Assembly: GCA_022771695.1 (NCBI GenBank)
Contig: JALEKJ010000046.1
Location: forward strand, 1-64,000
From: Roseburia sp.
GTDB taxonomy: Bacteria; Bacillota; Clostridia; Lachnospirales; Lachnospiraceae
DNA length: 64,000 nucleotides
Reading direction: 5' to 3'
Part shown: positions 13,612 through 54,021 of the stretch, piece after piece
Layout: each line of letters begins with the position of its first letter
Position numbering within the stretch: the first letter of the stretch is position 1
Notes under the pieces: model-generated
Database searches by the model: none
What the model was told of the DNA's origin: nothing
Seen by the model: only the letters and a program-made list of their open reading frames with translations
Program-made: the position numbers and the translations under genes

Positions 13612-13652
13612 AAAATGACAAAGAAATGGTAATAAATTTGGACATATTGGAT

Positions 13653-13696: not shown

Positions 13697-13713
13697 GATT
13701 GTTAAAAAATAAA

Positions 13714-13760: not shown

Positions 13761-13861
13761 AATCATTCTTGTAGCGAACAAACGCAGAATGCAGATGCAG
13801 ACATAATGCGGGATGCAATGCATTTTGTGTGTACATAATTTCCAAAAAGGGGTTCTATTTT

Positions 13862-33777: not shown

Positions 33778-35478
33778 ATGGCACCTAGAAATAGGAAAAA
33801 GCGTATTGGAGATATGCTCATTGATGAGCATATGATTACAGAGGAGCAGTTGGCACAGGCATTGCCGATTGCGCAGGAGAGCCAGAAAAAGATAGGAGAG
33901 GTTCTCGTAGAATTGGGGTTTGTTACGGAAGAGGGAATCGCAAATGCGCTGTCCAGACAGTTGGGTATCGATGTCGTGACCTTAAACGGTGCGAAGATTG
34001 ATGAGGATTTGTTAAAGCTTGTGAGTGGTACCTTGTTACGCAAGCACACGATGATTCCTTTTGAGTATGCCAGAGACAATTTGAACGTAGTACATGTGGC
34101 AATGGCGGATCCGATGGATATGACGGCGATTGATGACTTTGCAATCGTATCGAATATGCAGGTGGAGCCGGTTATTGCGACAACGCGCGAGATTATGATG
34201 GCACTTGACAAGTACTACGGAGATTCAGAGACGATGATGGCGGCCGAACGCTATGCCAAGGAACGTGAGATGGCAGAGCAGGCACAGCAGAATCAGGCAG
34301 CGAATGAGGATGTCAACAGTTCTCCGATTGTACAGCTTGTAAAGAGTATCATTGAGCAGGGGGCAAGACAGAGAGCCAGCGATATCCATATTGAAGCGCT
34401 CGAGAAAATCGTGCGTGTCCGCTATCGTATTGACGGTGCGCTGTTTGAACGATTTACCTATGATATTCATCTGTTGCCGGCAATCATTGCGCGTATCAAG
34501 ATTCTGGGCGGTATGGATATTGCAGAGAAGAGAAAACCGCAGGACGGACGTATCACAATGATGATTGACCGGCGTGAGTTTGACATCCGAGTATCGGTGT
34601 TGCCGACGGTTTTTGGCGAAAAGTGCGTGATGCGACTCGCACAGAAGAATAATCTGACGAAAGACAAGTCAGAGCTTGGACTGTCCGAGCAGGATATGGC
34701 AGAGTTTGATGATATCCTTAAGAATCCACATGGCATGATTCTGGTAACAGGACCGACCGGAAGCGGTAAGTCCACGACGCTTTACACTGCGTTGCATGAG
34801 TTAAATAACGAGGAAGTCAACATTATTACGGTAGAGGACCCGGTGGAGGCGAATATTGACGGCGTGAATCAGGTGCAGGTCAATCCGAAGGCAAATCTGA
34901 CTTTCGGAACAGCTCTTCGCTCCATCCTGCGTCAGGACCCGGATATTATCATGATAGGTGAGATTCGAGATGCGGAGACTGCTGAGATTGCGGTACAGGC
35001 ATCGATTACCGGTCATCTGGTGGTGAGCACTCTTCATACGAACAGTGCGGCCGGAACGTTGACTCGTCTGATGGATATGGGCGTGGAGAGTTATTTGCTT
35101 GCCGATTCCATGGTAGGAGTTATTGCACAGCGGCTGGTGCGGCGCTTATGCCCCGCGTGTAAGAAGCAGGTAGAGGCGACCGAAGAGGAAAAGGCGATTT
35201 TAGAGATTACAGGTGATGAACCGGTGCAACTGTACAGACCGTGCGGATGCCCGCAGTGTGGCAATACCGGTTATATTGACCGTATCGGTATCTATGAGAT
35301 TATGCGCATCACGCCGGAAGTAAGAGAGGCAATCTCCCACCGTAAATCTACACAGGAGATTGCACGTGTGGCTCTGGAACAAGGGATGAGTACCTTGCAG
35401 AGCAACGCGCGTAAGCTGGTGCGAGAGGGTATTACGTCAGTGGCAGAGATGATGCGTGCAACCTATGAGAATGAGTAG
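33778..35478 (+). CDS. pilB: type IV pilus extension ATPase PilB (GspE family) with N-terminal MshEN-like domain
   Basis: GPTGSGKSTTLYTALHELNNEEVNIITVEDPVE; LRQDPDIIMIGEIRDAETAEIAVQAS; CPAC...CPQCGNTGY Zn motif; tandem RIGDMLIDEHMITEEQLAQAL / KIGEVLVELGFVTEEGIANALSRQ. Confidence 0.96.
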   Translation: MAPRNRKKRIGDMLIDEHMITEEQLAQALPIAQESQKKIGEVLVELGFVTEEGIANALSRQLGIDVVTLNGAKIDEDLLKLVSGTLLRKHTMIPFEYARDNLNVVHVAMADPMDMTAIDDFAIVSNMQVEPVIATTREIMMALDKYYGDSETMMAAERYAKEREMAEQAQQNQAANEDVNSSPIVQLVKSIIEQGARQRASDIHIEALEKIVRVRYRIDGALFERFTYDIHLLPAIIARIKILGGMDIAEKRKPQDGRITMMIDRREFDIRVSVLPTVFGEKCVMRLAQKNNLTKDKSELGLSEQDMAEFDDILKNPHGMILVTGPTGSGKSTTLYTALHELNNEEVNIITVEDPVEANIDGVNQVQVNPKANLTFGTALRSILRQDPDIIMIGEIRDAETAEIAVQASITGHLVVSTLHTNSAAGTLTRLMDMGVESYLLADSMVGVIAQRLVRRLCPACKKQVEATEEEKAILEITGDEPVQLYRPCGCPQCGNTGYIDRIGIYEIMRITPEVREAISHRKSTQEIARVALEQGMSTLQSNARKLVREGITSVAEMMRATYENE

Positions 35479-35493
35479 ATAAGGAAAAAGCTT

Positions 35494-36564
35494 ATGGAAG
35501 AAGTAATGGAGATTATTGAAATACTGGAAGAGGCACAGTTAAAGGGGGCTTCTGACATTCATCTGGCACCCGGTACACAGGTAATGTTCCGCATTGACGG
35601 GAAACTGGTTCGGATGTCAGACGATATTGTTCCGCCGTACGCGATTGAAAAGATGTTAGAGCCGATGCTAAGCAAAGAGCAGCAGGCGGAGTTAGAGCGT
35701 GCAGGGGAATTGGATTTTGCATATTCGATACCCGGATTTCAGCGACTGCGTGTCAATGTGTTCCGTCAGAGAGGAACCTATGCGATGGCAATCCGAATTC
35801 TTTCCTTTGAGATACCGGACCCCAGAAAACTTGGAATTCCGCAGTCTGTTATCGAGTTGACCAAGAAAAAACGCGGACTTGTGCTTGTGACAGGCGCGAC
35901 CGGAAGTGGTAAGTCTACAACCTTGGCTTCTCTTATCAGTGTGATTGCACAACAATATGAGAAATCCATCATTACATTGGAAGATCCGATTGAGTATCTT
36001 CATCAGCATGGCAAGTCGATGGTGCTGCAAAGAGAGATTGGCTACGATAGCAAGTCCTACGCAAACGCGCTGCGCGCGGCACTTCGTCAGGACCCGGATG
36101 TCATCTTGGTTGGCGAGATGCGTGACCTTGAGACGATATCGACGGCAATTACGGCGGCAGAGACGGGCCATTTGGTGTTTTCGACACTTCATACGAACAG
36201 TGCAACAGCAGCGATTGACCGTATTATTGATGTATTTCCGCCGCACCAGCAACAGCAGATTCGTGTACAGCTAGCGGGTGTGTTAGAGGGAATTGTCGCA
36301 CAACAGCTTCTGCCGAAACAGGATGCAAAGGGGCGTATTGCAGCGTTTGAGGTAATGCTTGCCAACGCGGCAGTATGTAATCTGATTCGCGAAGGAAAAA
36401 ACTATCAGTTGCCGTCTACCATTCAGACTTCCCGCAAGGAGGGGATGCAGACGATGGATGACGCGATTTATGAGTTGTATATGAAGAGTTATATCAATTC
36501 CGATACGGCAGTTTCCTATGCACAGGATCCGACAGAGATGAGACAGAAGGTTCAGTTATTCTAA
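35494..36564 (+). CDS. pilT: type IV pilus retraction ATPase PilT
   Basis: GASDIHLAPGTQVMFRIDG; VTGATGSGKSTTLASLI; ALRQDPDVILVGEMRDLETISTAITAAETGHLVFSTLHT. Confidence 0.97.
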   Translation: MEEVMEIIEILEEAQLKGASDIHLAPGTQVMFRIDGKLVRMSDDIVPPYAIEKMLEPMLSKEQQAELERAGELDFAYSIPGFQRLRVNVFRQRGTYAMAIRILSFEIPDPRKLGIPQSVIELTKKKRGLVLVTGATGSGKSTTLASLISVIAQQYEKSIITLEDPIEYLHQHGKSMVLQREIGYDSKSYANALRAALRQDPDVILVGEMRDLETISTAITAAETGHLVFSTLHTNSATAAIDRIIDVFPPHQQQQIRVQLAGVLEGIVAQQLLPKQDAKGRIAAFEVMLANAAVCNLIREGKNYQLPSTIQTSRKEGMQTMDDAIYELYMKSYINSDTAVSYAQDPTEMRQKVQLF

Positions 36565-36577
36565 GGAGGAAGCCGGC

Positions 36578-37789
36578 GTGGAATTCGTCTATAAAGCAGT
36601 TACCAGAAGTGGAAAAGAGAAAAAAGGAAATATCGACGCGGAGGATGAAACGCGGGCGGTACTGAAATTAAAATCCATGGGGCTTGTGCCCATTGAGATA
36701 AAAAAGGCGACATTCTGGACGAGAGAGATGGATTTCTCTTTTGGTTCAGATATAAAGCCGAGAGATTTGAGCATTTTTTGCAGACAGTTTGTGAGTATGC
36801 TGCAGGCGGGAATTACGATTACCGATTGCCTGAATATGCTGGCACAGCAGACGGAGAATAAGAAGATGGCACGCGCTATCCGTCAGGTACAAAGTGATGT
36901 GGAAAAGGGAGAATCGCTTTCCGGCGCGATGAAAAAACACCCGAAAATTTTTCCGCGCATCATGATTAGTATGGCGACGGCAGGGGAGGCATCCGGTAAG
37001 CTGGAAACCTGCTTTCTTCGCATGTCCGACCATTTTGAAAAGGATGCCAGAATTCGTGGGATGATGAAGAAGGCGGCTGTATATCCGATTATGGTTGCCA
37101 TCGTAGCGGTTATTGTAATTATTATCCTGCTTATAAAGGTTGTTCCTGCGTATATGGAATTATTTGAGGATATGGATGTTACAATGCCGGCAATTACACG
37201 CATGGTCATTGATATCAGCAATTTTTTGCAGTCTTACTGGGCTATCGTGCTACTGGCGGTTGTAGCGATTATTGTTGCAATCAACACCTTCCGACAGACG
37301 GAGCGAGGAGAACACTTCTTCGGAACGATTGCCCGCAATATACCGATATTCGGGAAATTGAATATCAAGACACAGGCATCCATTTTTTCGCGTACGCTTA
37401 GTACGCTGTTGGCATCGGGTATCCCGATGATTGAAGCGTTGGATATTGTCTCAGGAACGATGACGAATGCACTTTACCGGGATGCGCTAAAAGAGGCAAA
37501 AGAGGAAGTGGCAAAGGGTGTGCCGCTTTCGGAACCATTAGAGAACAGCGATCTATTCCCGCCGATGGTGACACATATGGCGCGTATCGGTGAGGAGACC
37601 GGTGAACTTGAGGAGATGTTGAATCGGCTTGCAAACTACTATGACGAGGAAGTCGAGATGACGACGCAGACTGTTATGGCGGCTCTAGAGCCGATGATTA
37701 TTATTGCTATGGCAGTCATAGTGGTCTTTGTGGTTGCCGCTGTTATGGCACCGATGACTGCGATGTATTCCGGCCTGGACAACTTATAA
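36578..37789 (+). CDS. pilC: type IV pilus inner membrane platform PilC
   Basis: FCRQFVSMLQAGITITDCLNML...GVPLSEPLENSDLFPPMVTHMARIGEETGELEEML. Confidence 0.96.
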   Translation: MEFVYKAVTRSGKEKKGNIDAEDETRAVLKLKSMGLVPIEIKKATFWTREMDFSFGSDIKPRDLSIFCRQFVSMLQAGITITDCLNMLAQQTENKKMARAIRQVQSDVEKGESLSGAMKKHPKIFPRIMISMATAGEASGKLETCFLRMSDHFEKDARIRGMMKKAAVYPIMVAIVAVIVIIILLIKVVPAYMELFEDMDVTMPAITRMVIDISNFLQSYWAIVLLAVVAIIVAINTFRQTERGEHFFGTIARNIPIFGKLNIKTQASIFSRTLSTLLASGIPMIEALDIVSGTMTNALYRDALKEAKEEVAKGVPLSEPLENSDLFPPMVTHMARIGEETGELEEMLNRLANYYDEEVEMTTQTVMAALEPMIIIAMAVIVVFVVAAVMAPMTAMYSGLDNL

Positions 37790-37871
37790 TGAATTAAGAC
37801 TGCGCGACGGGAGCAGGTAATCCCATGGCAGTTTTAAGATAAAAATTATATTATTATGGAGGAGAAGAAAC

Positions 37872-38366
37872 ATGTTTAACAGACAAAACAAGAAGGACAG
37901 AAGAAAAGGGAACAATAAGGGATTTTCACTGGTGGAGTTGATTGTAGTAATCGCCATCATGGCAGTATTGGTAGCGGTTCTTGCACCACAGTTTACCAAG
38001 TATATCGACCAGTCCCGCAAGAGTAACGATGCGGCAACCGTATCCGGTATCGTGACAGCGGCACAGGTGGGAATTGCGGACTTAACATATGCGGTTCCGG
38101 AGGACACATACACGATTACTATTGCAGCAGATAAGACAACAGTTACAGGAGCTGATGTTACAAATGGGGCTGCAAATGCAACCAAGTTAGCGGATGCAAT
38201 TAAAGCAGCATGTGGTGATTTGGATGAGCTAAAGATTACTTCTAAGAATTGGAAAGATACTGGTGATAGTGATAAAAATCAAGTAAGAGTGGTGCTTGCA
38301 TATACAAATGGAGCAGTTACAGTATCCTATTCCCCAGACTTTGAATCATATGTTGCCGGAAATTAA
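37872..38366 (+). CDS. major prepilin
   Basis: Class III signal NNKG/FSLVELIVVIAIMAVLVAVLAPQFTKYIDQSRKS; strong RBS ggaggag. Confidence 0.94.
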   Translation: MFNRQNKKDRRKGNNKGFSLVELIVVIAIMAVLVAVLAPQFTKYIDQSRKSNDAATVSGIVTAAQVGIADLTYAVPEDTYTITIAADKTTVTGADVTNGAANATKLADAIKAACGDLDELKITSKNWKDTGDSDKNQVRVVLAYTNGAVTVSYSPDFESYVAGN

Positions 38367-38470
38367 GGCAAGTAGCGAATAATGTACGTTGCAATTTTAT
38401 GGGGACATTTTATGCGCGGGAACCTATTCTGGTGTATCCGCAAACTATAATTATTACATACCACCCTCGC

Positions 38471-38505
38471 AAGCGTTTCCCGTCCTTACCGGCAGGAAAC
38501 GTTTT
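38471..38505 (+). terminator. candidate partial terminator/attenuator or mRNA-stabilising hairpin between pilin and pilD
   Basis: gcgtttcc-cgtccttaccggca-ggaaacgttttg. Confidence 0.45.
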
Positions 38506-38535
38506 GCCGGGTTATCTCACAGAAAGGACTCTCTC

Positions 38536-39339
38536 ATGCCAAGCGAACTTGTACCAATTGTACTTCCAATTGTATTTTTATACGGGATAGTTATCGGAAG
38601 CTTCTTAAATGTTTGCATTTATCGCATTCCGTTAGGAGAGAGCGTGGCGAAAGAGCGTTCCCACTGTATGCACTGCAGACATCAGTTGAGCTGGTACGAG
38701 CTAATCCCGATAGTAAGCTGGCTGGCATTACGCGGGAAATGCCGCAAGTGTAAAGCAAAGATATCGGTGCAGTATCCATTGGTAGAGGCGTTGAACGGAA
38801 TCCTTTATGTGCTGATATATTATGTACACGGATTTGCAGCAATGAACCCGAAGGTAGCAGTAGATCCGGTAATGAGTTTGATAGAGAGTGGCATATATTG
38901 TTTGATGGCGTCTGCGCTCATCGTTCTCAGTGTCATTGATGAGCGGACAGGAGAGATTCCGGTTGGAATCAATATTTTTTTGTTGGTGCTTGGCATCGCA
39001 GAAGTGATGCTTATGCGTGACGCATGGCTTTCGCATGTGGTTGGCATGTTGGTGGTCAGTGGATTTTTGGAAATCGTATTTTTATTGTCAAAAGGAAAAG
39101 CTATCGGTGGAGGAGATATCAAGCTGATGGCGGCGGCGGGATTGATTCTCGGTTGGGAGAAGATTATCCTTGCCTTTGGAATTGGATGTATTCTGGGTTC
39201 CGTGATTCACCTAGCACGGATGAAGCTAACGAAGACAGACCATGTATTGGCGTTTGGTCCCTATTTGTCAGCAGGCATATTGATAGCTGCTGTGTGGGGA
39301 ACGCAGATGATACAGTTTTATATAACAATGTTTATTTAG
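38536..39339 (+). CDS. pilD: prepilin peptidase
   Basis: GSFLNVCIYRIP...CMHCRHQLSWYELIPIVSWLALRGKCRKCKAKI; AIGGGDIKLMAAAGLILG. Confidence 0.96.
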   Translation: MPSELVPIVLPIVFLYGIVIGSFLNVCIYRIPLGESVAKERSHCMHCRHQLSWYELIPIVSWLALRGKCRKCKAKISVQYPLVEALNGILYVLIYYVHGFAAMNPKVAVDPVMSLIESGIYCLMASALIVLSVIDERTGEIPVGINIFLLVLGIAEVMLMRDAWLSHVVGMLVVSGFLEIVFLLSKGKAIGGGDIKLMAAAGLILGWEKIILAFGIGCILGSVIHLARMKLTKTDHVLAFGPYLSAGILIAAVWGTQMIQFYITMFI

Positions 39340-39400
39340 ATGAGATAGAAAATAGCGTTTTAACGATAAGATAGAGCAGTTGTTACGAAAGGGCAAAGCA

Positions 39401-40957
39401 ATGGCAGGAAGGATATTAAGCATCGAGGTAGGAACTTACGAGACACGAGTTCTTGAGATGGATTATAAGACAAAAAAAGCGCCGAAGATTCATCATTTTT
39501 TCAAGGTTCCGACACCGGATTATATGGTGGCAGACGGAAGTGTCATCATTGACCATGAATTTATCGCTGCAATGAAAAGAGAGTTTGCGGCAAATAATAT
39601 TCGCACCAATAAGGCGATTTTTGTTTTGAATTCTGCAAGGATTGCAAGCAGAGAGGTGACCGTGCCGGCGGTAAAAGAGAATAAGATTCATGAACTGTTG
39701 GTAACGAACTCGGCAGAGTATTTCCCAGTGGACCTTGTGCAATATCAACTGGTACATCATATTGTGGAGCGAAGTGCGGAGGAGAATACGTACAAGCTTT
39801 CCGTACTTGCGGTACCGAATGAGATGATACAGTCTTATCTGGCATTGGCGGATGCATTGGGATTACAGGTGGAGGCACTTGACTATGTGGGAAACAGTGT
39901 CACGCAGGGAATGCTCAAGTTTTTGCCGGACGAGGTTAAGGTCTCGGTGAAGATTGACGAACAGAGTGCATTAATCACGATTATCCGTGGCGATAAGGTC
40001 GAACTGCAGAGAAATATTTCTTACGGAATCCGTGATGCGGTGGAGGTCGTTGCGGACCATCCGGCATTCGGAGGGAAGAAGACATTTGCGCAGGCGTTGG
40101 AAGTGATGAAGAACCGTAACTGTCTGGGCGAAGAGGAGGTAGAAGAAAATTTAAGCCCTCTGCTTGGAAACATCAGACGTATCTTAGATTATTACATATC
40201 CAGAAATCAGGATGTTACATTCAGTGAGGTGTGGCTGATTGGAGCAGGGGCAGAGTGTAAGGGACTTGACGAGCTTCTTGCATCAGAGTTGAATGTGAAG
40301 ATTTCTCCGCTGTGCAGTCTGCCACAGGAATATGAGCTTGTCAGGAACCTGTCAGCATCTGAGTTCGCGGTGCCGGAATACACGGCATGCATTGCTGCGA
40401 CAATTGCCCCGTTGAACTTTAACTTAAGCAACGAAGAGAAAAAAGGTGTTTTCGGAAAGCTGTTGGCAAAGAATGAACTGGGATATGCACCGGTGGTATG
40501 TGGCATTTGCCTTTTTACTGCGATATGTATGATTATTTATTCTTTGGTATCTACCGGTTTCTTAAAAATGAAGAATGCCGATATGGAGCACCGAATCGCA
40601 GAATTGAGCGCAGCGCAGCAGGCGTATGATACTTATACAAAGACACAGGCGCAGTATGGTGACTTGACGCAGATGTATGCATTGACGGAGACGCCAAATG
40701 ATGCGTTGCTTGCATTTCTTGCAGAGATGGAAGAAAAGATGCCGTCAGAAATTTCTGTTTACAGCATGACGGCAGGGACAGAGGGTGTCAGCATGAATAT
40801 TACCGTGTCGTCGAAGGCGGCGGCATCGAAGGTGTTGATGCAGCTTCGAGACTTTGAGACGCTTGATGAAGTGGATACGCCGGGTGTGACGGAGACAAAG
40901 GACGGTGGCAGGACGACGGTTTCATTTTCCGTATATTGCACCTATGCGGGGGAATAG
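39401..40957 (+). CDS. PilM-PilN fusion-type pilus assembly protein
   Basis: N-terminal actin-like PilM (ILSIEVGTYETRVLEMD...); C-terminal TM + PilN-like (VVCGICLFTAICMIIYSLVSTGFLKMKNADMEHRIAEL...MTAGTEGVSMNITVSS). Confidence 0.82.
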   Translation: MAGRILSIEVGTYETRVLEMDYKTKKAPKIHHFFKVPTPDYMVADGSVIIDHEFIAAMKREFAANNIRTNKAIFVLNSARIASREVTVPAVKENKIHELLVTNSAEYFPVDLVQYQLVHHIVERSAEENTYKLSVLAVPNEMIQSYLALADALGLQVEALDYVGNSVTQGMLKFLPDEVKVSVKIDEQSALITIIRGDKVELQRNISYGIRDAVEVVADHPAFGGKKTFAQALEVMKNRNCLGEEEVEENLSPLLGNIRRILDYYISRNQDVTFSEVWLIGAGAECKGLDELLASELNVKISPLCSLPQEYELVRNLSASEFAVPEYTACIAATIAPLNFNLSNEEKKGVFGKLLAKNELGYAPVVCGICLFTAICMIIYSLVSTGFLKMKNADMEHRIAELSAAQQAYDTYTKTQAQYGDLTQMYALTETPNDALLAFLAEMEEKMPSEISVYSMTAGTEGVSMNITVSSKAAASKVLMQLRDFETLDEVDTPGVTETKDGGRTTVSFSVYCTYAGE

Positions 40958-40966
40958 GAGAGAATC

Positions 40967-41707
40967 ATGATTACCAAGAAAGAGAAAAAGATGCTGTTAT
41001 ACGCGGCAGGGGGCTTATGCCTCGTGCTGGTATATTTTTTTATAGTGGCGCCCGGAAAGGAAGAGCGGGCAGAGCTAAAGAATACGAGCGAGTCGCTTGC
41101 AACGGAACTAGAACAAGCAAAAGCGCATGCAGATAAACAGGAGTATTATGAGCAGGAGACAGCGGTGATGCAGGAGGAGATAGATGCAGTGTTGGCACAA
41201 TTCCCGTCCTGGATTACGGAAGAGACGACAATCATGTATGCAGATATGCTAGAGGACGATACGGATATATACATCCCGAACATCAGCATCGGAAACAGTA
41301 ATTATCTTTATACGCTGGGAGAAGGAGCCGGTGAAATGGCGGGAACCGGGATTTCGTTATATGGAACACCGGTCGTGTATACGTATACGGTTTCCTATGA
41401 TGATATGAAGAAGGTAGTTCGAATCATTCAGGAGGATGACGAGCGGCGCAATGTGGAGACGATTACTTTATCCTACGAATCCGGAAGCGGTAAGCTGGTT
41501 GGAAATATGACCGTTAACATGTATGCGGTGACGGGAACCGGAAAGGAATATGTGGCACCAAACGTTCCTTCCATGATGCTTGGTACAGACAATATTTTCG
41601 GAACAGTATCTGCCTCCGGAGACAATCGTGATTCAGATGAGAAAGACACGGACGATGCAGAAGAAGATGCAGAGGGCGAAGATGTGTCTTTGGAAGATGG
41701 AGAATAA
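40967..41707 (+). CDS. PilO-like pilus assembly protein
   Basis: Single N-terminal TM, coiled coil, position directly after PilM/N; acidic C-terminus. Confidence 0.7.
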   Translation: MITKKEKKMLLYAAGGLCLVLVYFFIVAPGKEERAELKNTSESLATELEQAKAHADKQEYYEQETAVMQEEIDAVLAQFPSWITEETTIMYADMLEDDTDIYIPNISIGNSNYLYTLGEGAGEMAGTGISLYGTPVVYTYTVSYDDMKKVVRIIQEDDERRNVETITLSYESGSGKLVGNMTVNMYAVTGTGKEYVAPNVPSMMLGTDNIFGTVSASGDNRDSDEKDTDDAEEDAEGEDVSLEDGE

Positions 41708-41710
41708 CGG

Positions 41711-42889
41711 ATGAAAAATAACGAGCGAGGATATACGCTCATTGAGCTTATCATTGCGATTACAATCCTGGCAATTATCGCAATTCCGCTGATGCATGGA
41801 TTTGTCACGGCGGCAAAAACAAATGCGAAGGCGAGAGAAATTGAACAGGCAACGACAGTCGCACAAAATACCATGGAGAAAATCAAGGCGACACCGATAG
41901 AAGAACTGATAAAAGCGGTGGAGCCACATAAGGATTTGGGCATCCTGGAAAATGGAGATACGATGGAGACGCTCCGCTATGAACTGACATATGAGGAAGT
42001 GGTAACGGATGGTGTGCCTTATCGCGTGGATGTCAGAATAGAAAATGGTCCGAGTGGCGATGACGGTCTTACTATGCTTACTGACTACAATCAGAGCGAA
42101 CTGGCAAGGTTGTATGATATGAATGTGGCATATGATGCCTTTTTTATTCTGGAAGAGACGACGGATACGGCGCTGATAGAGGAGCTTTCCGTGGCGACAG
42201 GCGCAAGTCTTTTGCGTGTGCGCGACGACGTAAAGCGGAATATTTATGTGGATATCAAGGAAGAGACAGGTACCAGAATTGTTGAAGTGAATGTAGCGTA
42301 TACCTATCGAAACGCTACCCGATACATGGCAGCACAGAACCAGTGTATCTATTCGAGTTCTTCGCAGGATACATATTTGCGGAATGTCTACGTGTTTTTT
42401 GAGCCGCTTTCCAACATGGGGGAAGGTGATGCGCCGAAAGAGACGATTACAGTACGCAATACATGCTGCGCCGAGGAGAAAGAACCGGTGCAGGTCTATT
42501 TGGTAAAACAGGGGACGGTGCAGGATGAGAACTATGCTGTGGCGGTGAATCTTATGGAGCAGGCGAGAGACCTTGCTTCCTATAAGGACACAGACGGCAA
42601 TATAAAAGTAATGACGGCAATCTGTACGAACCTCTCTTTCCCGAAAGATGCATCGAGTACAGCGGATGATCAGATTGTGCTAAAGTACAGCACGCGGGAT
42701 GGCGGCTATGAAGAGAGTGTGTCGATTTTGGGAAACTCGTATACGGCGGATGAGCTTGCAGGTTTGACAACGCTTGCCGCGGAAGCAAAGCAGGATTGGA
42801 TTTATAATGTGAGCGTGGAAGTGCGTAAGAAGGATGCAGAAGAGTATGAAGATGCGTTGGTATACCTTACGGGAACAAAAGAAAAATAA
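41711..42889 (+). CDS. minor pilin-like protein (PilV/GspI-like)
   Basis: NNERG/YTLIELIIAITILAIIAIPLMHGFVTAAKTNAKAREIEQATTVAQNTMEKIK. Confidence 0.82.
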   Translation: MKNNERGYTLIELIIAITILAIIAIPLMHGFVTAAKTNAKAREIEQATTVAQNTMEKIKATPIEELIKAVEPHKDLGILENGDTMETLRYELTYEEVVTDGVPYRVDVRIENGPSGDDGLTMLTDYNQSELARLYDMNVAYDAFFILEETTDTALIEELSVATGASLLRVRDDVKRNIYVDIKEETGTRIVEVNVAYTYRNATRYMAAQNQCIYSSSSQDTYLRNVYVFFEPLSNMGEGDAPKETITVRNTCCAEEKEPVQVYLVKQGTVQDENYAVAVNLMEQARDLASYKDTDGNIKVMTAICTNLSFPKDASSTADDQIVLKYSTRDGGYEESVSILGNSYTADELAGLTTLAAEAKQDWIYNVSVEVRKKDAEEYEDALVYLTGTKEK

Positions 42890-45311
42890 TAAAGGTTCTT
42901 CGATTGTGATGGTGCTTGTGGTCATGGCGTTGCTTATGATTCTGGTTGCCATCGTTTTGTCTCTGGCTTTGATGAACTATCGTATGAAGACGACAAACCG
43001 ACAGTCTGTGTATAACTTCTATAGTGCAGAGACGGCGTTAGACGAGATACGAGCAGGCTTGACGAAGGAAGTGTCCGCGGCAGCGGCAGATGCCTATAAC
43101 ACAACGATGGCAGAGTTCGCAAGCCTTGACGAGTCTGCACGCAGACAGAAGTTCCAGACGGCGTATATCAATCATTTAAAGGCTGCGCTTGTTGATGAAA
43201 CGGGCGTGATAAACGGCAGCGCAACATATTCCATCGGGTATATTGCTGCAATGATACAGGAGACTGAATACAGCGAAGAGTGGAAAACCGGAGCGAAGTT
43301 GCTGACGGCAGAGGGAGAGAATATCATTAATGAGACCAAGAATGGTCTGGTTCTTAAGAACATTACGGTTGTCTATTATGGGGAGAACGATTTTATCAGT
43401 GAAATTAGGACAGACATTGTACTGGGATTCCCGGATATTAATTTCTCACAGGTAGCAACAATGCCAAACCTTCTGGCATATGCACTTGTGGCACAGGATT
43501 CCATACAAATCACGGATGCCGCTGTCTGCACAATAAATGGAAATGCTTACCTTGGAACAGAAGAGAGTGTTGTGGAAAATTCGATTCTTGCGGCGAGCAG
43601 TAAAGCGACTGCGGTAGATAACCAACTTTTGATTAGCGGAGGAACCGTCAAGGGGACGACCAATGCAAGAATACAGGTGTCGGATATGGAATTGTGGGCA
43701 CAGGATGTTGTAGTGGACAGCAGCACGGTAGGAGTGGATCGTTCCTTGGTCTATTTGCAGGACGATTTGATTTTGAGCAATAGCCTCTATCATGCACAGG
43801 GCGCACAGACCGAGAGTAAGGTATCTATCAGTGGAGCCTACTATGGATTCGGTAATGTGGAGACGGCTGTGAGGGCAAGTGCATATGCAGGGGATGCAGA
43901 TAAGGTGGAAGAGATTGAAAAACACCCGGCAAATTATAACAGTTCCATGATTATTAACGGTGTGAATTCGACGCTTGATATTTCAGGTTTGTCGGTGTTT
44001 AAACTGGCGGGTAATGCTTATGTCAACGGAACAGAACATGCGACTGCGGTAGATGAGATGATTGCAAATGCAAACCGCACAGAGAACGGTTCGGTAGATG
44101 CACGTGTGGCAGAAGGTGTGAATACAGAGGATGTGTTGATGGGCGAATCTCTGGCGATACGCTCGGATCAGATTGCATGGATGGTTCCGGCAGACTGCAT
44201 TGCACCGGAGACGAAGAATGGCGGCGTGAATCCGATGCCAATCATACAGTACTCAGAATTGCTGGAAGAATTAGAAATGCTTTATGGTACGGGGGCTTCT
44301 GATTTCCGGGCGGTGGATAACCTTGTGTCGCTGAATACGAAGTCGGATAAACTTGGAGGGGCAACGCTCGGGGAACTTGGCGTGACAGGCTGGCAGATTG
44401 AAGCACAGCAGGTTGTCGGTACAGCAAAAAGTATGGTCTATGTGTTCGTTAAATTTGATTCGGTGAATTCCGCGAATGCATTTTTTAGAAGATATTACAG
44501 TGATGCAGGGAACCTTACGAAGCTTGGTGAGTATCTGGATTTGTATGCAACAGGCGGCATTCGCCTCCCGCAGGAGGTTTTAGATGCATCGGGAGATACA
44601 AATTTTTATTTTAATGGAAATTTACTGGCATCTGAGGCGGCGAGGCTTTATGTGCCGGATACGCTGTCCGGGGTGTCGGCATCTACAGGTGCGCGACTGA
44701 GTGAGCGTATGCTGGAGGAGGGGGTTGCATATCAGGACAATTTTGCAGCGCTCAATACGAAACTGTTGAAGGATTATTCACAGTTGATGGATGATGAGCG
44801 CGGGAAGACAGTCTATGAGAATCTGGTGAATTCCATGGTTTCCGGTGAAAGTACAGAGTATAGCATTCCAGAGGGTGGCAACCGCGTATTTGTGAAGTCT
44901 ACCGGACAGGCGGCAATCATCGTAAATGGTGACTTTACCGTGAATGATACCAACCTCGCTGCAATCAAAACGACCAGGGATGTGGAGGGTGAGATGCACT
45001 CGGACGCGGAGTGCTATGTGATCATTGCAGCAGGAGATGTTACTTTGGAAAAGGATTTTACGGGGCTTATATTTGCAGGCGGCAAGATTGTTGTCGCGGG
45101 GAAAAATGTGACTGTCACAGCAGACGCGCGCAATGCGGCACAGGCGCTTATGGCAGAAAATGATGCGGGCATTCATGCGTATGATTATTTGAAGAATGGA
45201 GAGACCTACACAATATCCGGCAATCTGGAAGGAGAGCAGCCGGCGCTTTATTCAGAGGATAACCTGAATATGACGGATTATGTGCTTTATGCAAACTGGT
45301 CAAAGCAGTAG
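42834..45311 (+). CDS. giant PilX/GspK-like pilin-like protein (~820 aa) with repetitive beta-rich C-terminal region
   Basis: KKNNKG/SSIVMVLVVMALLMILVAIVLSLALMNYRMKTTNRQSVYNFYSAETALDEIRAGL; exact start uncertain, overlaps preceding CDS. Confidence 0.82.
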   Translation: MQKSMKMRWYTLREQKKNNKGSSIVMVLVVMALLMILVAIVLSLALMNYRMKTTNRQSVYNFYSAETALDEIRAGLTKEVSAAAADAYNTTMAEFASLDESARRQKFQTAYINHLKAALVDETGVINGSATYSIGYIAAMIQETEYSEEWKTGAKLLTAEGENIINETKNGLVLKNITVVYYGENDFISEIRTDIVLGFPDINFSQVATMPNLLAYALVAQDSIQITDAAVCTINGNAYLGTEESVVENSILAASSKATAVDNQLLISGGTVKGTTNARIQVSDMELWAQDVVVDSSTVGVDRSLVYLQDDLILSNSLYHAQGAQTESKVSISGAYYGFGNVETAVRASAYAGDADKVEEIEKHPANYNSSMIINGVNSTLDISGLSVFKLAGNAYVNGTEHATAVDEMIANANRTENGSVDARVAEGVNTEDVLMGESLAIRSDQIAWMVPADCIAPETKNGGVNPMPIIQYSELLEELEMLYGTGASDFRAVDNLVSLNTKSDKLGGATLGELGVTGWQIEAQQVVGTAKSMVYVFVKFDSVNSANAFFRRYYSDAGNLTKLGEYLDLYATGGIRLPQEVLDASGDTNFYFNGNLLASEAARLYVPDTLSGVSASTGARLSERMLEEGVAYQDNFAALNTKLLKDYSQLMDDERGKTVYENLVNSMVSGESTEYSIPEGGNRVFVKSTGQAAIIVNGDFTVNDTNLAAIKTTRDVEGEMHSDAECYVIIAAGDVTLEKDFTGLIFAGGKIVVAGKNVTVTADARNAAQALMAENDAGIHAYDYLKNGETYTISGNLEGEQPALYSEDNLNMTDYVLYANWSKQ

Positions 45312-45323
45312 TAGGAGGAAAGC

Positions 45324-45863
45324 ATGAAACGAAATGAAGGTTTTTCATTAGTGGAATTGATTGTGGTCATTGCAATTCTGGGAGTTCTTAGTACCGCGGC
45401 TGTTGTGGGAATCGGGATGATTAGCGGCTGGCGTATCAATAAGTGCGTCAGCCTTTTGGATAGCGGACTTAAGGAGACACGGACGGATGCGCTTAGCCGT
45501 GAGGCGGCGTACCTTATAATTTCCTGTGATGAAAATGGCAATTATTACATGGAAGGAACGAAGAATCCTCAGGAGAAAATCGCGGGTAGTCCTATTAAAA
45601 TTGTGTATATGACAGATGCCAAGACAGACGAGGAGATGATTACACCGGATCATCCGCTTGTTCTATCCTATGATAGGGCATCGGGAGCGTTTTTGCCTAT
45701 TCTGGAATGGGACGCAGAGCATAGCACTTATGTGCAGAAACAGACCGGAGAGGGCGCAGATATCTCTTATGTATACTGTACATCCATCCAAATTTGTGCA
45801 GGGGAAGAAAAGAGCACCACAATCAGATTGGTAAAAAGCACGGGAAAACACACCATTGAGTAG
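45324..45863 (+). CDS. minor pilin-like protein (FimT/GspH-like)
   Basis: RNEG/FSLVELIVVIAILGVLSTAAVVGIGMISGWRINKCVSLLDSGLKETRTDALSREA. Confidence 0.85.
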   Translation: MKRNEGFSLVELIVVIAILGVLSTAAVVGIGMISGWRINKCVSLLDSGLKETRTDALSREAAYLIISCDENGNYYMEGTKNPQEKIAGSPIKIVYMTDAKTDEEMITPDHPLVLSYDRASGAFLPILEWDAEHSTYVQKQTGEGADISYVYCTSIQICAGEEKSTTIRLVKSTGKHTIE

Positions 45864-45879
45864 AAAACAGGGAGATTGC

Positions 45880-46899
45880 ATGAAAAAGGAAAATCAGGGA
45901 TATACGCTGGTGGAACTGATTGTAACCGTCGCAATTCTTGCACTTGTGGGGATTGGAATCGGTACGATTGTCTCACAGGCACTGAAAAATTACCGGATAT
46001 CGAATGCCCAAGTCAATCTGCAACAGGAGTCACAGTTGGTTGGAAATCAGTTGATGAATCTGGTGTTTGATGCGAGCGATGGGGTCAGTGCAGAATCCGG
46101 AAAATTGAATATTTACAACTACAATGCTGTAGATGATGTGCGGAGCAAGACGGTAATCGCATACAACGATGCGGATGGCACGCTCACTTACACCAGATAT
46201 GAGGCAACGGGTGCAGCGGGAGGCTGGCTGCCGGTGGAAGGAGAGACGGAGGAGTGTCTGGCAGAGTATGTGACGGGCTTTTCTGTGGTATTATTGGATG
46301 AGATGGGAGCAAGGCTGATTACGACGGGAGACCATGGCGATGCAAAAGTCCGACAGGTTACGATGCATATCCTATACGAGCTTAACGGTGAAAGCTACGA
46401 TTTCGACCAGACGGTTACACTGAGAAATCGCGTGCTTGCAGGCAATATTACAGAAGAGGATACGGAAAGTGGGCAGCCGTCGGAACCGGAGGATACGGAA
46501 ACGGAACAACCGCCGAAAATCGAGGAGCCTGCGACAGGACAGATACGCATATATCTGACAGACTGGTGGAGAAACAGATACGATGCGGCTGCGACGCTCA
46601 GAGGCGGAAATGTCTATTGGTTCCATATCGAAGCGTACGATGAGACAACCAACAGTTATCAGGAGATTGATTGGGGTACAGAGGTAAGGGAAGGTCACCT
46701 ATATGCGTTTACCGATAACAGCGGAAATACCATTGCAAATAAGAAAAATTATCTGAGTGACGGATATATTAGTATTCGCAATGGCGGGTATGGCGTAGAC
46801 CATAAAACCTATGATTTGACAGTCCGTTACAACGGAAATGGTGAGAATCCGAAGGATAACATTGAGTATGAGGCGATATTTACAATTACGACAGAATAG
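45880..46899 (+). CDS. minor pilin-like protein (PilW/GspJ-like) with C-terminal extension
   Basis: KENQG/YTLVELIVTVAILALVGIGIGTIVSQALKNYR...; Thr/Glu/Pro-rich linker DTESGQPSEPEDTETEQPPKIEEP then a globular tail. Confidence 0.83.
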   Translation: MKKENQGYTLVELIVTVAILALVGIGIGTIVSQALKNYRISNAQVNLQQESQLVGNQLMNLVFDASDGVSAESGKLNIYNYNAVDDVRSKTVIAYNDADGTLTYTRYEATGAAGGWLPVEGETEECLAEYVTGFSVVLLDEMGARLITTGDHGDAKVRQVTMHILYELNGESYDFDQTVTLRNRVLAGNITEEDTESGQPSEPEDTETEQPPKIEEPATGQIRIYLTDWWRNRYDAAATLRGGNVYWFHIEAYDETTNSYQEIDWGTEVREGHLYAFTDNSGNTIANKKNYLSDGYISIRNGGYGVDHKTYDLTVRYNGNGENPKDNIEYEAIFTITTE

Positions 46900-46912
46900 T
46901 ATAGGAGGCAAT

Positions 46913-49900
46913 ATGAGACCAAGGGCAAAAAGGTTGCTGCTAGGCGGTGTCTGTGCAGGCTTTGTCGGATTGCTTGCAGCGGGGTCAGTGCGTACAAGCG
47001 CGGATGCGGTGACTGCCTATGCGTTTCCCGCGGTGACAGATGAGAGTGCGGCAGTGGGGAGTGCAGAGCGTCCGTTTCGAATCTTAGAGATTGTTCCGAA
47101 CGAGAGTATGGGAATGATTGGCTATATGATTGACGGCTGCGAACCGATTTCTATGGAATCATTATCCGGGCAGGAATATGGAGCGACACAGGTTTATAGA
47201 GATAATATGGTAACGACCGGTCTTGTTCAGGAAGAAAGGGTTGTTTCCTATGCTTTTGCGAGCGAGCTGCCTGCGGGATCTGAGATGGCGGGATGGTCAG
47301 GCGAATTTGGAAAGTGGTGGAAGTATACAAATTCTGTCACGGATGACACGACAGGATATTCGGAGTTTGGCTACTATGAAAACGTGGGCGCCGGAAATGG
47401 TGAATACAGCTATGATGCAGCGGGCGATTTTTTTTCTTATGTAGGAATCGGAGGCGGTGAGTATAGCTGGAACCTTGCGGAATATTATGTGGGCGTGGGG
47501 GTTGGTAACGGTTCCTATACCAGAATGATAAATGGAACAGATTTAAATACCTGCACATTTACTTATGTTGGGGATGGTGCAGGAAATTATGTCTGTACGG
47601 TACTGCTTGATACGACGGCGGAGGATAAGGGTATGAAAGACCCTGCGACGCGGTATTGGACTTACCGGACACAGAGCGAGTATTATTCGCGTTGGTGTTA
47701 TCAGTACACGAATAACGACTGTTTTCTTCAGGCAGTGTTTGGCAACACGACAAGGGACGGCTTTGAGGCAGAGGTCATAACCATTACTCCGGACCTGTTA
47801 AAAGGAGAGAATCTGCAGTTGATTGATCAGGCAGATTTGATTGTGATAACGGCGCAGGAATACATGACCGAGGTATGGGATGCCTATAATCTGGATGGAA
47901 TTACCCGGACAGCGGATGAGAAAGCGGCAAGACCGAAAACTTTTTTGGGGGCAGACGGGAATGACCTGACTTGGGAAGCGACCATACGTATCGTAGAGCG
48001 TATGGCTTCCGATACACCACCGGGAATGTATCTGGAACAGCCGGCACTTTATTTTGGAGGCAATTCAGGTGAGTATAATATCGGAAAGCTTTACATCATG
48101 CTCATGCAGTACGGGGCGAATATTTTTAGGAATACATTTATTGAGGGAAATGATAATTTTGCAGCAGATACCTACGTGACATCGGATGGTAAGACGACTT
48201 ATGGAGGAGTTTTTACAAAGCACAATGATGCGACCGGACAGGATGAGAGAATTACAAACTGGGATCAGCAGACATTTTTGACACCATATGGAGAGAGTGT
48301 CATGCATGAGGCCGCCTTCCCGCTAGGCAGAACAGGAGAGGTATTTGGAACAATTCTCCTCTACAATGGAGACACAAGCTTTTTGCGAGGATTTTTGACG
48401 ACGGTAGTGCCGGAGATTACCTCAACGAATCCATCTTATCCGATGGGGTCAAACAGTGAGATGTTTGATTATTATGAGCAGCAGACTGGTACGCGCCCGA
48501 CAGAGCTTTCGATGGGCAATGCAGCGAAATATATTATCGGAAATGCTTTAGGAACAGGAAACAACGGTGTGGCACGCAAGGAAACACTCCACATCTTAGA
48601 GCTTCAGCCCTGTAATGAATTTATTTATGGCGGCGATTATTGGCAGCTTTATTATATGAGCATTTTTCCATGGTTTTCCGGCAGCTTGGCGGAAGATGTC
48701 ACGGTTACGACGATGACAACCTATCAATTTATCGGTGATATTACAGATATAAATTCGGAATATGATTTGATTATTATCGGAAGCAGTCAGGATGCAACCT
48801 GTGGGCAAAACGGCTATAATGACGCGCGGATGGGGCATCTGCTCTATACAAGTATTGGCGACCTGGTGACGAACTATCGCGACAGAAACTGGAGATGGAG
48901 TAGCGGTGGAGTATCGGCAGATGCCGGAATGTCCGAACAGATGGGAAGTGATGCTTATCAGATGAAATCCCGCTATTCCGGTACGGATATCACGAAAAAG
49001 AAGTACGAAGAGCTGCGTGATTTCATGGCATCGGGTAGTCCGATTGTGGCAGATACAAAGCTGTATTCTGACGGAACACAGGTAAACACTTCTCTTGTAG
49101 ATGTAAATTCTTATATTTACCGGCTTGTGAGCGGAGTTTATCAGAATGGAAATGACAGTCTGCTGTTTAAAGCGGGGGCAGCAAGAACCTCTTTCGAACA
49201 GAAACGTCTGAAGGAAGCACTTTCGCAGGAGCGCTTAAGACTTATATTTGCGGAGGATGGCACAGGACTTCCATTGGAGTATTCTGCAGTTACGGAGAAT
49301 CGCGATGTGCCTGTAAAAGACGCCAATGGAAATATAAAGTCATGGACCAATGTGGATGGTATTATCGTTTCAGAAAACTATAATACAGACACGGATGACA
49401 ACGGAAATCCGGTGTTGCGCTATACATTTACGCTAAAAGGAGATGTCGAGCATACTTATGGCGTGAGGCTTTATCTTGATCATAACGGCGATGGTGTCTA
49501 TAACAATTCCATCAAGGAGCGGATGGAGCTTTTGGCAGCCGGTAAGGAGATGAGCAGCCTGAATACGACGCTTACCAGTGAGGAGGCGAATGGCTCCCGC
49601 ATCAGCATTTATGACCAGACAAGCCAAACGTTTGTCTCGGCAGATAATCTGCTGGCAGGTCATACTTATCAGTTTGTCTATCGTGTGCGAAGCACAGAGC
49701 GGGGAATCCTGCCTTGGAAGTTAGAGGTCTACGATCAGAGTAACCAGAGTATTCGCGGCTCTAAAACGGGATATACGGCATTTCGCGTGAGCGGCGACAA
49801 CGTGGAAAAAGAGCAGATTAATGTGTTACAGATGAATCTGATGCCGGATATGAGGAACGAAACGGCAACTTACGTGAACTTCGCGGATGAGACGACCGTA

Positions 49901-51400
49901 ACCGGCGCAAAGTTTGCAGCATATTTAGATGCGGTGGAAGATTTTGATGTCAATCTGGAATTTATGAGGAACCGCGTATGGTATGACGAGTTTGGAGAAT
50001 TTGGAAGCACGGCGAACAGTATGGGATACACGAAGGAAAGACAGATTGCAAGGTGGAAGGAATTCCTGGAAGGTTATGATATGCTTATTATCGGGTACTG
50101 TGATATGGCGGCATTCACCAATGATGAGATTTTTTATGAAGGCTTTATGGAATTTGTAAATCAGGGAAAGAGTGTTATTTTAAGCCATGACTTGGTAAGT
50201 GATGCCAGCTTTTTGTACATGCATAATAATCTTACGACGGTGTATGATCCGGCAATTCGTACTTTGGCGGGACAGCGCAGAAAATATTATGCCGGAGATA
50301 CAAACTATTACCGATACAGCAGCACGATGTTAAACGGCACGGAAATTTCTCTTTTGCCACCGGATGATTTTTTGATTTGGTTCAGCGGAACCGGTAACGG
50401 ATGGGGACGTCTCGGAAAAGAGGATTTCATGTCGGTAGCGGAGACGAATATACCTGAGGCACCGACGGATAATGCGAATGAGTTTATGGACAACAGTGTC
50501 CGACTGATGATGACTTATTCCAAGGACATGAAGAGAGACAGAATCTTAAACAACAGTATTACGAATTTTTCATGGCTTGGTCATACGGAAACGCAGTATG
50601 TGGAGGTGGCAAATAAAGGGCAGGTTACAACGTATCCATACACTCTTGGGGATACGATGGCGGTGTCTACGACTCATGTTCAGAACTATCAACTCGATTT
50701 AGAACAGGAGGACGGCGGCGATGTCACAGTATGGTATAATCTGACGGATTCATTTGATTCGGATGTGACGGCGCAGGGTACGAACGATGGTGTGTATTCT
50801 TCGCGCTCCGGTGATTCGCGGAACAACTACTATATTTACACGAAGGGGAATATTACTTATACGGGACTTGGACATAGGAATGCAGCATTGACGAATGATG
50901 AGGTAAAGTTGTTTGTCAATACGATGATCGGTTCATATCGTGATGTGCCTACAGTTCCGTACGCACGTGTGGAGAATGCAGATGCCTCTGAGCATAAAGG
51001 TGATTATACACTTTATGTACCTTTAACCGGTGCGGAAAGCACAGAGGATACGATAGAGGTCGCTTTTTCTATTGTAGATGAGAATGACCATAACATTACT
51101 TCGGTCCGCAGTTATCGTCTGCAATATACGGATGCGAACGGAAATGTGATTTCAGATACGATTGCGACATCAACGCCAAATGGCTCGTTGCTAAATTACC
51201 TTTCGGATGAAAAAATGTATCAGGTGCAGCAGAATGGTACATACACCTTCCAAGTGCCGTGTGAGACAGTATTGAATGAGGGTGAAGCGGTTTATTATTT
51301 GAATGTTACGTCGAGTTATTATGCGGGCACCAAAGAGTATACGACATCAAGAGTAACAAAGGTTGTGGTATATGCGATGCCGCTGTTTTCCCTGCATTAG
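46913..51400 (+). CDS. giant secreted protein (~1,495 aa, DUF5057-like), candidate pilus-tip protein
   Basis: Sec signal MRPRAKRLLLGGVCAGFVGLLAAGSVRTSADAVTAYA; no LPXTG or C-terminal TM; last gene of the T4P operon. Confidence 0.8.
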   Translation: MRPRAKRLLLGGVCAGFVGLLAAGSVRTSADAVTAYAFPAVTDESAAVGSAERPFRILEIVPNESMGMIGYMIDGCEPISMESLSGQEYGATQVYRDNMVTTGLVQEERVVSYAFASELPAGSEMAGWSGEFGKWWKYTNSVTDDTTGYSEFGYYENVGAGNGEYSYDAAGDFFSYVGIGGGEYSWNLAEYYVGVGVGNGSYTRMINGTDLNTCTFTYVGDGAGNYVCTVLLDTTAEDKGMKDPATRYWTYRTQSEYYSRWCYQYTNNDCFLQAVFGNTTRDGFEAEVITITPDLLKGENLQLIDQADLIVITAQEYMTEVWDAYNLDGITRTADEKAARPKTFLGADGNDLTWEATIRIVERMASDTPPGMYLEQPALYFGGNSGEYNIGKLYIMLMQYGANIFRNTFIEGNDNFAADTYVTSDGKTTYGGVFTKHNDATGQDERITNWDQQTFLTPYGESVMHEAAFPLGRTGEVFGTILLYNGDTSFLRGFLTTVVPEITSTNPSYPMGSNSEMFDYYEQQTGTRPTELSMGNAAKYIIGNALGTGNNGVARKETLHILELQPCNEFIYGGDYWQLYYMSIFPWFSGSLAEDVTVTTMTTYQFIGDITDINSEYDLIIIGSSQDATCGQNGYNDARMGHLLYTSIGDLVTNYRDRNWRWSSGGVSADAGMSEQMGSDAYQMKSRYSGTDITKKKYEELRDFMASGSPIVADTKLYSDGTQVNTSLVDVNSYIYRLVSGVYQNGNDSLLFKAGAARTSFEQKRLKEALSQERLRLIFAEDGTGLPLEYSAVTENRDVPVKDANGNIKSWTNVDGIIVSENYNTDTDDNGNPVLRYTFTLKGDVEHTYGVRLYLDHNGDGVYNNSIKERMELLAAGKEMSSLNTTLTSEEANGSRISIYDQTSQTFVSADNLLAGHTYQFVYRVRSTERGILPWKLEVYDQSNQSIRGSKTGYTAFRVSGDNVEKEQINVLQMNLMPDMRNETATYVNFADETTVTGAKFAAYLDAVEDFDVNLEFMRNRVWYDEFGEFGSTANSMGYTKERQIARWKEFLEGYDMLIIGYCDMAAFTNDEIFYEGFMEFVNQGKSVILSHDLVSDASFLYMHNNLTTVYDPAIRTLAGQRRKYYAGDTNYYRYSSTMLNGTEISLLPPDDFLIWFSGTGNGWGRLGKEDFMSVAETNIPEAPTDNANEFMDNSVRLMMTYSKDMKRDRILNNSITNFSWLGHTETQYVEVANKGQVTTYPYTLGDTMAVSTTHVQNYQLDLEQEDGGDVTVWYNLTDSFDSDVTAQGTNDGVYSSRSGDSRNNYYIYTKGNITYTGLGHRNAALTNDEVKLFVNTMIGSYRDVPTVPYARVENADASEHKGDYTLYVPLTGAESTEDTIEVAFSIVDENDHNITSVRSYRLQYTDANGNVISDTIATSTPNGSLLNYLSDEKMYQVQQNGTYTFQVPCETVLNEGEAVYYLNVTSSYYAGTKEYTTSRVTKVVVYAMPLFSLH

Positions 51401-53520: not shown

Positions 53521-53606
53521 AGCAATGAGCAGTGCCAAAACGTGCAGAGGCAATTTGACGGCTTGCCGGCAAAGGTGGCTGTGTCCGTTTTGATAGGGCG
53601 AATGCC
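53521..53606 (+). promoter_or_regulatory. candidate structured leader RNA element, copy B (5'UTR of the PilZ gene)
   Basis: TATAAT at 53507-53512, then AGCAATGAGCAGTGC[CAAAACG...CGTTTTG]ATAGGGCGAATGCC; matches the element at 1632-1718. Confidence 0.6.
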
Positions 53607-53682
53607 TACGAGCGAGATGGAGCAAAGCGTCATCGAGCGTACACTGCGTATTTCGAGACGAATCTATAACGGAGGAGAAGCG

Positions 53683-54021
53683 ATGGAGGAGAGAAGACGG
53701 AATCTTAGAACAGAGCTACACGCAGAACTGTTGATGAAGCGACTTGACCGAGGCGGTGGAGAAGAGAAGGTTGAAATCAAGGTTTGTGATGTATCTAAGA
53801 CAGGGATTGGGTTTGTCTGTGCAGAAGAGTTAGAGAAAGGCTCGTTGTATGAGTGTTTCCTGACAATCTGGACGAAGGAAGTAATCCGTTGTTTTATCGA
53901 AATTGTGCGCGGTGAGAAGCGTGACGATGGATATCGTTATGGAGCCACTTTTGTCGGCATGACAGAGATGGATGCATATCGAATTCAGGTTTACCAGACT
54001 GTAGAGGAATATAAAGGATAA
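53683..54021 (+). CDS. PilZ-domain (c-di-GMP-binding) protein
   Basis: N-terminal RRRNLR, VCDVSKTGIGF (D/NxSxxG motif), YRYGATFVGM. Confidence 0.85.
   Translation: MEERRRNLRTELHAELLMKRLDRGGGEEKVEIKVCDVSKTGIGFVCAEELEKGSLYECFLTIWTKEVIRCFIEIVRGEKRDDGYRYGATFVGMTEMDAYRIQVYQTVEEYKG

Follow-up and report, generated by a model that had tools for sequence, protein, structure and literature searches.

The PilC/PilY1 tip protein of type IV pili (T4P) has been described as a diderm feature (PMC10191384), and the PilY1 proteins of diderms combine a shared pilus-linked protein with heads that are modular (PMC13190605, PMC10191384). The T4P of monoderms are described as lacking the late, outer-membrane-linked components (PMC6916266). 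Here, we analyze a stretch of 64,000 nucleotides from Roseburia sp. (assembly GCA_022771695.1, contig JALEKJ010000046.1, positions 1 to 64,000 of the forward strand; hereafter, the window), in which an uninterrupted one-strand T4P operon, extending from 33778 to 51400, has the order pilB-T-C-A-D-M/N-O-I-K-H-J and ends with a gene for a 1495-residue protein, hereafter the giant; I, K, H, and J are minor pilins. The giant is probably a tip-bound modular adhesin of a monoderm type IVa pilus, PilY1-like in role by convergence. The tip location, the docking partner and the adhesive function are inferred from the operon, the gene association, the secretion signal, the lack of an anchor, the conservation of the C-terminal tail, and the adhesive modules of relatives.

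The giant is the last gene of the same operon in 11 of 12 relatives; in the twelfth (L036), only a relic of the locus is left. A search seeded with pilus-linked sequences identified 79 loci in 85,000 species genomes, and in all 63 loci with a readable upstream region (at least 1.5 kb) minor pilins are situated directly before the giant, with a median gap of 30 bp between J and the giant. In 58 of these loci the minor pilins are strictly the last two genes before the giant; the remaining ones comprise three with a small inserted gene, one with a K-like gene in the last position, and one with a split giant. A gene of about 160–177 codons, CYTH-type by eye, was observed between J and the giant in L081, L098, and L117. 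Tandem giants follow a single set of minor pilins in L047, L050, L052, and L058, and the tail is retained wherever the end is complete.

Because the first search began from pilus-linked sequences, evenly sampled genomes of the class (393) and of the phylum (300) were added. The cut-off of DUF5057, the Pfam family of the giant, was exceeded in 8 genomes of the class sample and in 5 of the phylum sample, always in pilus loci (8/8 and 5/5, respectively); after removal of the window and of overlaps between the samples, the count was 10/10. Since TIGR01175, a T4P marker, has FtsA- or MreB-like matches in almost every genome, only its full-length matches were counted. Three Paenibacillus-like genomes encode the giant between pilB and the minor pilins in divergent orientation; as these giants stay in the pilus locus, the link to T4P outlasts the loss of operon order. 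The only clearly pilus-unlinked match is a partial DUF5057 protein of 397 residues encoded in a glycosyltransferase and sugar-nucleotide locus (L168:8805-9998; G399:C39), while a further match (L167) lies on a contig too short for its linkage to be judged.

An earlier, sequence-only reading of this DNA had proposed the conservation of operon order as a check and had named wide occurrence of the giant without T4P genes as evidence to the contrary. We looked for such occurrence and found the giant with pilus genes in all 63 readable loci and in all 10 further genomes above the cut-off, and the same order with the giant last in the 11 relatives; hence, that reading is partly supported as a whole and strongly so in its genetic part, the giant being tied to T4P across Clostridia and Paenibacillus-like Bacilli. 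A link of this kind is a genomic association only, and it would also be seen if the giant were a hitchhiker, that is, a surface protein merely co-transcribed with the operon and having no role in the pilus. Such an explanation seems extremely improbable, as the association holds in another class of the phylum despite the broken gene order and as in one genome (G001) the operon has disappeared along with most of the giant: in its relic locus (L036:8700-10347), a deletion has left just the first codons of pilB, fused to the giant's last 465 codons, and the other pilus genes are gone.

The giant starts with the ATG at position 46913, 13 bp after J, and is preceded by a strong Shine-Dalgarno sequence (taggaggcaatATG). 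Its features are the following.

46913 to 51397, + strand: giant secreted protein of 1495 residues, DUF5057 family (PF16480), candidate tip adhesin by its linkage to T4P
46913 to 47005, + strand: Sec signal peptide, residues 1–31 (...TSADA), a hydrophobic N-terminus with a maximum Kyte-Doolittle window of 2.08
48569 to 49282, + strand: first Rossmann-like repeat, residues 553–790, from the AlphaFold2 model and from hhalign to the second repeat
48986 to 50191, + strand: Pfam match to DUF5057, residues 692–1093
49478 to 49528, + strand: EF-hand-like loop DHNGDGVY...E, residues 856–872, of the DxNxDGx[FY] type
49805 to 50968, + strand: second Rossmann-like repeat, residues 965–1352 (alignment A8)
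50966 to 51379, + strand: C-terminal beta-sandwich, immunoglobulin (Ig)-like, residues 1352–1489, from the AlphaFold2 model
51380 to 51397, + strand: tail PLFSLH-COOH, proposed docking peptide, identified by its motif and modelled as coil

The signal ends in ...RTSADA-V. Past it, a sequence scan found no transmembrane-like window and no LPxTG, Pfam and sequence scans found no wall-binding, SLH, or sortase motif, and the giant itself has no prepilin motif (class III signal). The earlier description of a Sec-secreted protein of about 1,495 residues, free of an LPXTG or transmembrane anchor and directly following the minor pilins, thus agrees with the 13-bp gap, the signal, and the scans. The giant is a clear member of DUF5057 (127.6 bits, E-value 1e-36, against a gathering cut-off of 27.9), which Pfam lists as a family with no assigned function. 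A literature search in an open library found no paper naming DUF5057 and none describing the giant gene in Lachnospiraceae pili. Homology to PilY1 was rejected, since the giant has no match to PF05567, the C-terminal beta-propeller domain of PilY1, and no propeller is present among the Foldseek matches of its 955-residue C-terminal model to the PDB; that the giant is unrelated in sequence to PilY1 had been the earlier view as well, and DUF5057 is found in place of PF05567. In the 393 class genomes PF05567 had no match (0/393), in a search that had no positive control.

An AlphaFold2 model of residues 541–1495 (955 residues), built on an alignment of 57 relatives, has a mean predicted local distance difference test (pLDDT) of 79 and a predicted TM-score (pTM) of 0.84. 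From its N-terminal end, it consists of two Rossmann-like domains, separated by a beta region that contains the EF-hand-like loop, and of the C-terminal beta-sandwich. The two Rossmann-like repeats are homologous (hhalign probability 95.9, E-value 5e-9), and the loop of the DxNxDGx[FY] type was found in 64 of 68 giants. A three-fold repeat is not claimed, as residues 50–330 align to the second repeat over just 50 columns and with low probability. Foldseek gave confident Ig-like matches for the C-terminal half, including fimbrial chaperones and the fimbrial subunit AggA, which do not identify the domain that was aligned. As for a fold relative of the whole protein, the top Foldseek matches, to enzymes of glycoside hydrolase family 2, were set aside (TM-score about 0.1, root-mean-square deviation about 32 Å), and searches of the PDB with the sequences of both halves of the giant returned chance matches only (BceA, E-values 0.01–0.02).

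The second Rossmann-like domain contains the invariant residues H131, D132, R155, R162, and H294 (alignment A8), which resemble a ligand or catalytic pocket, and shows a faint similarity to ThuA, with weak matches in 5 of 32 members. Both observations would suit a giant acting at the cell wall, where it would open or line the path of the pilus through the peptidoglycan or serve as a glycan-active enzyme of ThuA/GATase1-like fold, and so would the pilus-unlinked protein of 397 residues in the glycan locus. On the whole, we consider this unlikely: no motif for residence at the wall was detected by the above scans, the C-terminal tail is left unexplained, and many monoderm T4P have no giant.

The tail of the giant is conserved. 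Its motif [LMIV][FY]x[LM]x-COOH, with a constant spacing to the stop codon, is present in 67 of 75 non-redundant giants, compared with a frequency of 0.0018 per position in the remainder of these sequences. Its consensus may be written as [LM]-F-x-L-[D/N/R/K]-COOH, with leucine at position −2 in 76/81 sequences and, at position −4, phenylalanine in 69/81 and tyrosine in 5/81. In a family with identities of 20–40%, no other C-terminal feature is as well conserved as these last five residues. The last Ig strand of the model runs to M1489, and PLFSLH lies beyond it as low-confidence coil outside the Ig domain (pLDDT about 60). A homologue of 1024 residues (L145, G419, reversed locus 11554-14628) has lost the DUF5057 core and has retained the N-terminal domain and the tail, here ILFNLE.

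Two types of pilus-associated proteins provide precedents for terminal tails. In models of PilY1.3 and PilY1.1 from Myxococcus xanthus, the last eight residues (LQNVYELP in PilY1.3) extend PilX by one strand (PMC11046646). TcpF attaches to the minor pilin TcpB, and CofJ to CofB, via a flexible tail at the N-terminus in which an aromatic residue, tyrosine in TcpF, is essential (PMC9565799). Given these precedents, the conservation of the tail, and its free position in the model, we propose by analogy that the tail of the giant is a docking peptide for a minor pilin. Alternatively, a minor pilin could recognize it as an export signal, in place of a permanent anchor. The giant would then be a soluble colonization factor that the pilus carries to the outside and lets go, as type IVb pili do with TcpF and CofJ. 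The tail, with its conserved aromatic residue at position −4, does resemble their docking tail with its essential Tyr/Phe (PMC9565799), and the giant is secreted and has no anchor. We nevertheless find release quite unlikely, since a monoderm has no secretin to cross and would hardly need a pilus for this purpose, the adhesive and stalk-type modules of relatives suit a retained protein better, and the tail of the giant is C-terminal, not N-terminal.

These modules were recognized in several giants. Those of L127 and L129 contain pAdhesive_15 (ice-binding-like) and Big_2 domains, and those of L171 and L167 contain either PA14/GLEYA together with carboxypeptidase-like repeats or SpaA-like (SpaA/SdrD_B) repeats. 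In L171, a second giant-sized secreted protein, with an NPCBM glycan-binding domain, precedes the DUF5057 giant. The predicted adhesive modules of some relatives and the conserved, free tail fit a tip-bound adhesin. In one operon that has no giant (L155:12901-17301, G037), J is followed by an SLH protein and by a protein of 1080 residues with vWA and L-type lectin domains, the latter protein being, it appears, another adhesin in the place of the giant.

The candidate partners of the tail are the four minor pilins.

41711 to 42889, + strand: minor pilin I (PilV/GspI class), prepilin signal and profile matches
42834 to 45311, + strand: minor pilin K, 825 residues, prepilin signal without Glu5; a long helix followed by a beta-helix-rich body
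45324 to 45863, + strand: minor pilin H (GspH/FimT class), prepilin signal and profile matches
45880 to 46899, + strand: minor pilin J (ComGF/PilW/GspJ class), prepilin signal and profile matches

Class III (prepilin) signals are present on all four open reading frames. Among the relatives, I matched the profiles of PilV (23/25), GspI (18/25), and ComGE (24/25), and H matched those of GspH (21/25) and ComGD (11/25); by these profiles the I and H classes are well assigned. J is moderately assigned, with matches to ComGF in 19/22 relatives and weak ones to GspJ in 4/22. K matched PilX_N in just 2 of 25 relatives, and its assignment, in sequence terms the least certain of the set, is based on gene order, size, and the absence of Glu5: in all 56 scorable relatives K has the cleavage glycine and no Glu5, as in GspK/PilK. 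Glu5 is kept by H and J in 57/57 relatives and by I in 52/57, most of the remaining I proteins having an N-terminus that is not scorable. The signals, the Glu5 pattern, and the profiles together bear out the identification of four minor pilins of the I, K, H, and J classes in the sequence-only reading.

A subunit lacking Glu5 on top of the minor-pilin complex is a rule for type 4 filaments (PMC10191384). In comparisons of distance matrices, the giant has its highest partial correlation with K, 0.36 (delete-half range 0.23–0.49), the next value being 0.19. As the Glu5-less subunit, the counterpart of PilX, and the top partner by this measure, K is the likeliest docking partner of the giant's tail, the correlation giving weak support. 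The model of K (pLDDT 78, pTM 0.67) comprises the long helix and the beta-helix-rich body; a Foldseek search with it gave nothing significant. The body resembles ice-binding proteins and tapirin adhesins very weakly, and two independent searches gave non-significant matches to a Caldicellulosiruptor adhesin, namely, 4wa0, annotated as a 'possible adhesin' (profile search, E-value 0.58), and 6n2b (fold search, E-value 1.2, rank 2), both of which we take to be tapirins of Caldicellulosiruptor. Tapirins are secreted cellulose-binding proteins encoded beside the T4P genes of a Clostridia-like monoderm. The resemblance between K and the tapirins is only a lead.

Several observations weigh against a tip-bound adhesin docked by its tail to K. 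Firstly, five related operons (L147–L151) have the same B-T-C-A-D-M/N-O-I-K-H-J order and no giant. Secondly, the tail is altered in distant clades, reading ...DRY in Paenibacillus-like genomes, PSLD in others, and ...PLLR in G608. Thirdly, no adhesive Pfam domain was recognized in the giant of the window. Fourthly, the lead of K is small at equal column numbers, 0.28 against 0.23 and 0.22. Finally, the adhesive head could be K instead, given its very weak similarity to a 'possible adhesin'. In view of the five operons without it, the giant is not a required component: it is an accessory that only some of these pili have, and it is not essential for piliation in general.

The last of these points can be extended to an alternative in which K itself is the adhesive tip, in the manner of the modular pilins of Streptococcus sanguinis, and the giant would serve as scaffold or as additional decoration. 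The 825 residues of K, its beta-helix-rich body, and the two matches mentioned above are in line with this. We judge it very unlikely, as both matches are far below significance, as adhesive modules occur on the family of the giant, and as K remains large (820–920 residues) in the five operons that have no giant, so that an adhesive K would not explain the giant.

If the giant is a tip-bound adhesin, the pilus could operate as follows. In the membrane, the four minor pilins would assemble into a priming complex topped by the Glu5-less K. The giant, exported by Sec and released outside the membrane, would be captured by this complex through its conserved C-terminal tail, probably as a beta-strand added to a minor pilin, for which K is the best candidate. 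PilB would then push the complex out, and PilT would retract it upon ligand binding by the giant. The Rossmann-like repeats and the EF-hand-like loop, and in relatives the PA14/GLEYA, ice-binding-like, or SpaA-like modules, would constitute the binding head and the stalk.

The part of the operon upstream of the minor pilins encodes the machinery on which such a cycle would depend.

33778 to 35478, + strand: pilB, extension ATPase with an MshEN (cyclic di-GMP-type) domain, first gene of the operon (Pfam T2SSE 6.8e-139, MshEN 1.1e-16)
35494 to 36564, + strand: pilT, retraction ATPase, open reading frame with an orthologue at the equal place in relatives
36578 to 37789, + strand: pilC, platform protein (T2SSF 8.1e-66)
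37872 to 38366, + strand: pilA, major pilin (N_methyl 2.7e-08, IV_pilin_GFxxxE)
38539 to 39339, + strand: pilD, prepilin peptidase, open reading frame with a conserved orthologue
39404 to 40957, + strand: pilM-pilN fusion (PilM_2 5.1e-13 at residues 15–309, weak PilN at residues 446–521)
40967 to 41707, + strand: pilO-like gene (T2SSM 1.7e-05, weak PilO), conserved in position

PilM and PilN are fused into a single protein in the window and in nearly all related operons. A PilZ-like gene, assigned by eye, is located just downstream of the operon (53578-54021). The MshEN domain of PilB and this nearby gene suggest that pilus extension may be under cyclic di-GMP control. Same-genus relatives of the window include contigs of Roseburia faecis M72 and metagenome-assembled genomes of Agathobacter, the host genome being of the Lachnospiraceae type, and R. 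faecis carries the same operon (L078). A secretion operon of Roseburia predicted by natural language processing (PMC9523054) was considered and set aside as a different system, built on CpaF and DUF5411.

A tip-bound giant would mean that the abundant gut Lachnospiraceae and Paenibacillus-like bacteria possess a second, unrelated family of tip proteins, and that pilus tips have acquired a separate adhesin more than once. DUF5057 would gain a function, the role of its five-residue tail would be directly testable, and a means would be suggested by which commensals such as R. faecis might adhere to mucus, to fibre, or to other cells. More tentatively, and with somewhat more doubt than conviction, we suggest that monoderm Bacillota possess a separate class of T4P tip proteins that are not pilins and are convergent with PilY1: the DUF5057 tail would sit in the Glu5-less K, the giants would carry exchangeable adhesive heads, and the tip would be a socket for swappable adhesins, such as DUF5057 giants and vWA-lectin proteins.

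Of the described systems, the tapirins (4wa0, 6n2b) have no detected relation to the giant, and their similarity to K is not significant. PilY1/PilC of diderm type IVa pili resemble the giant in being large, Sec-secreted, modular non-pilins encoded directly after the minor pilins; the free C-terminal tail of the giant may also join a minor pilin as an extra strand, as modelled for PilY1 and PilX (PMC11046646). PilY1 has an EF-hand-like loop (PMC13190605), and the DxNxDGx[FY]-type loop of the giant, a putative calcium site, sits in a different fold. Unlike PilY1, the giant has DUF5057 Rossmann-like repeats, a monoderm host, and the tail motif [LM]-F-x-L-x. With TcpF and CofJ of type IVb pili it shares the status of a secreted non-pilin of the pilus operon and a flexible terminal tail with a key aromatic residue, whereas its tail is C-terminal, its size is far larger, no sequence relation exists, and TcpF is secreted. 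Finally, PilB (vWA) and PilC (lectin) of S. sanguinis place adhesive modules at the tip of a monoderm type IVa pilus, and vWA and lectin domains recur in the slot protein of G037; in S. sanguinis, the pilins that bear these modules have class III signals of their own, whereas the giant is a separate Sec-secreted non-pilin.

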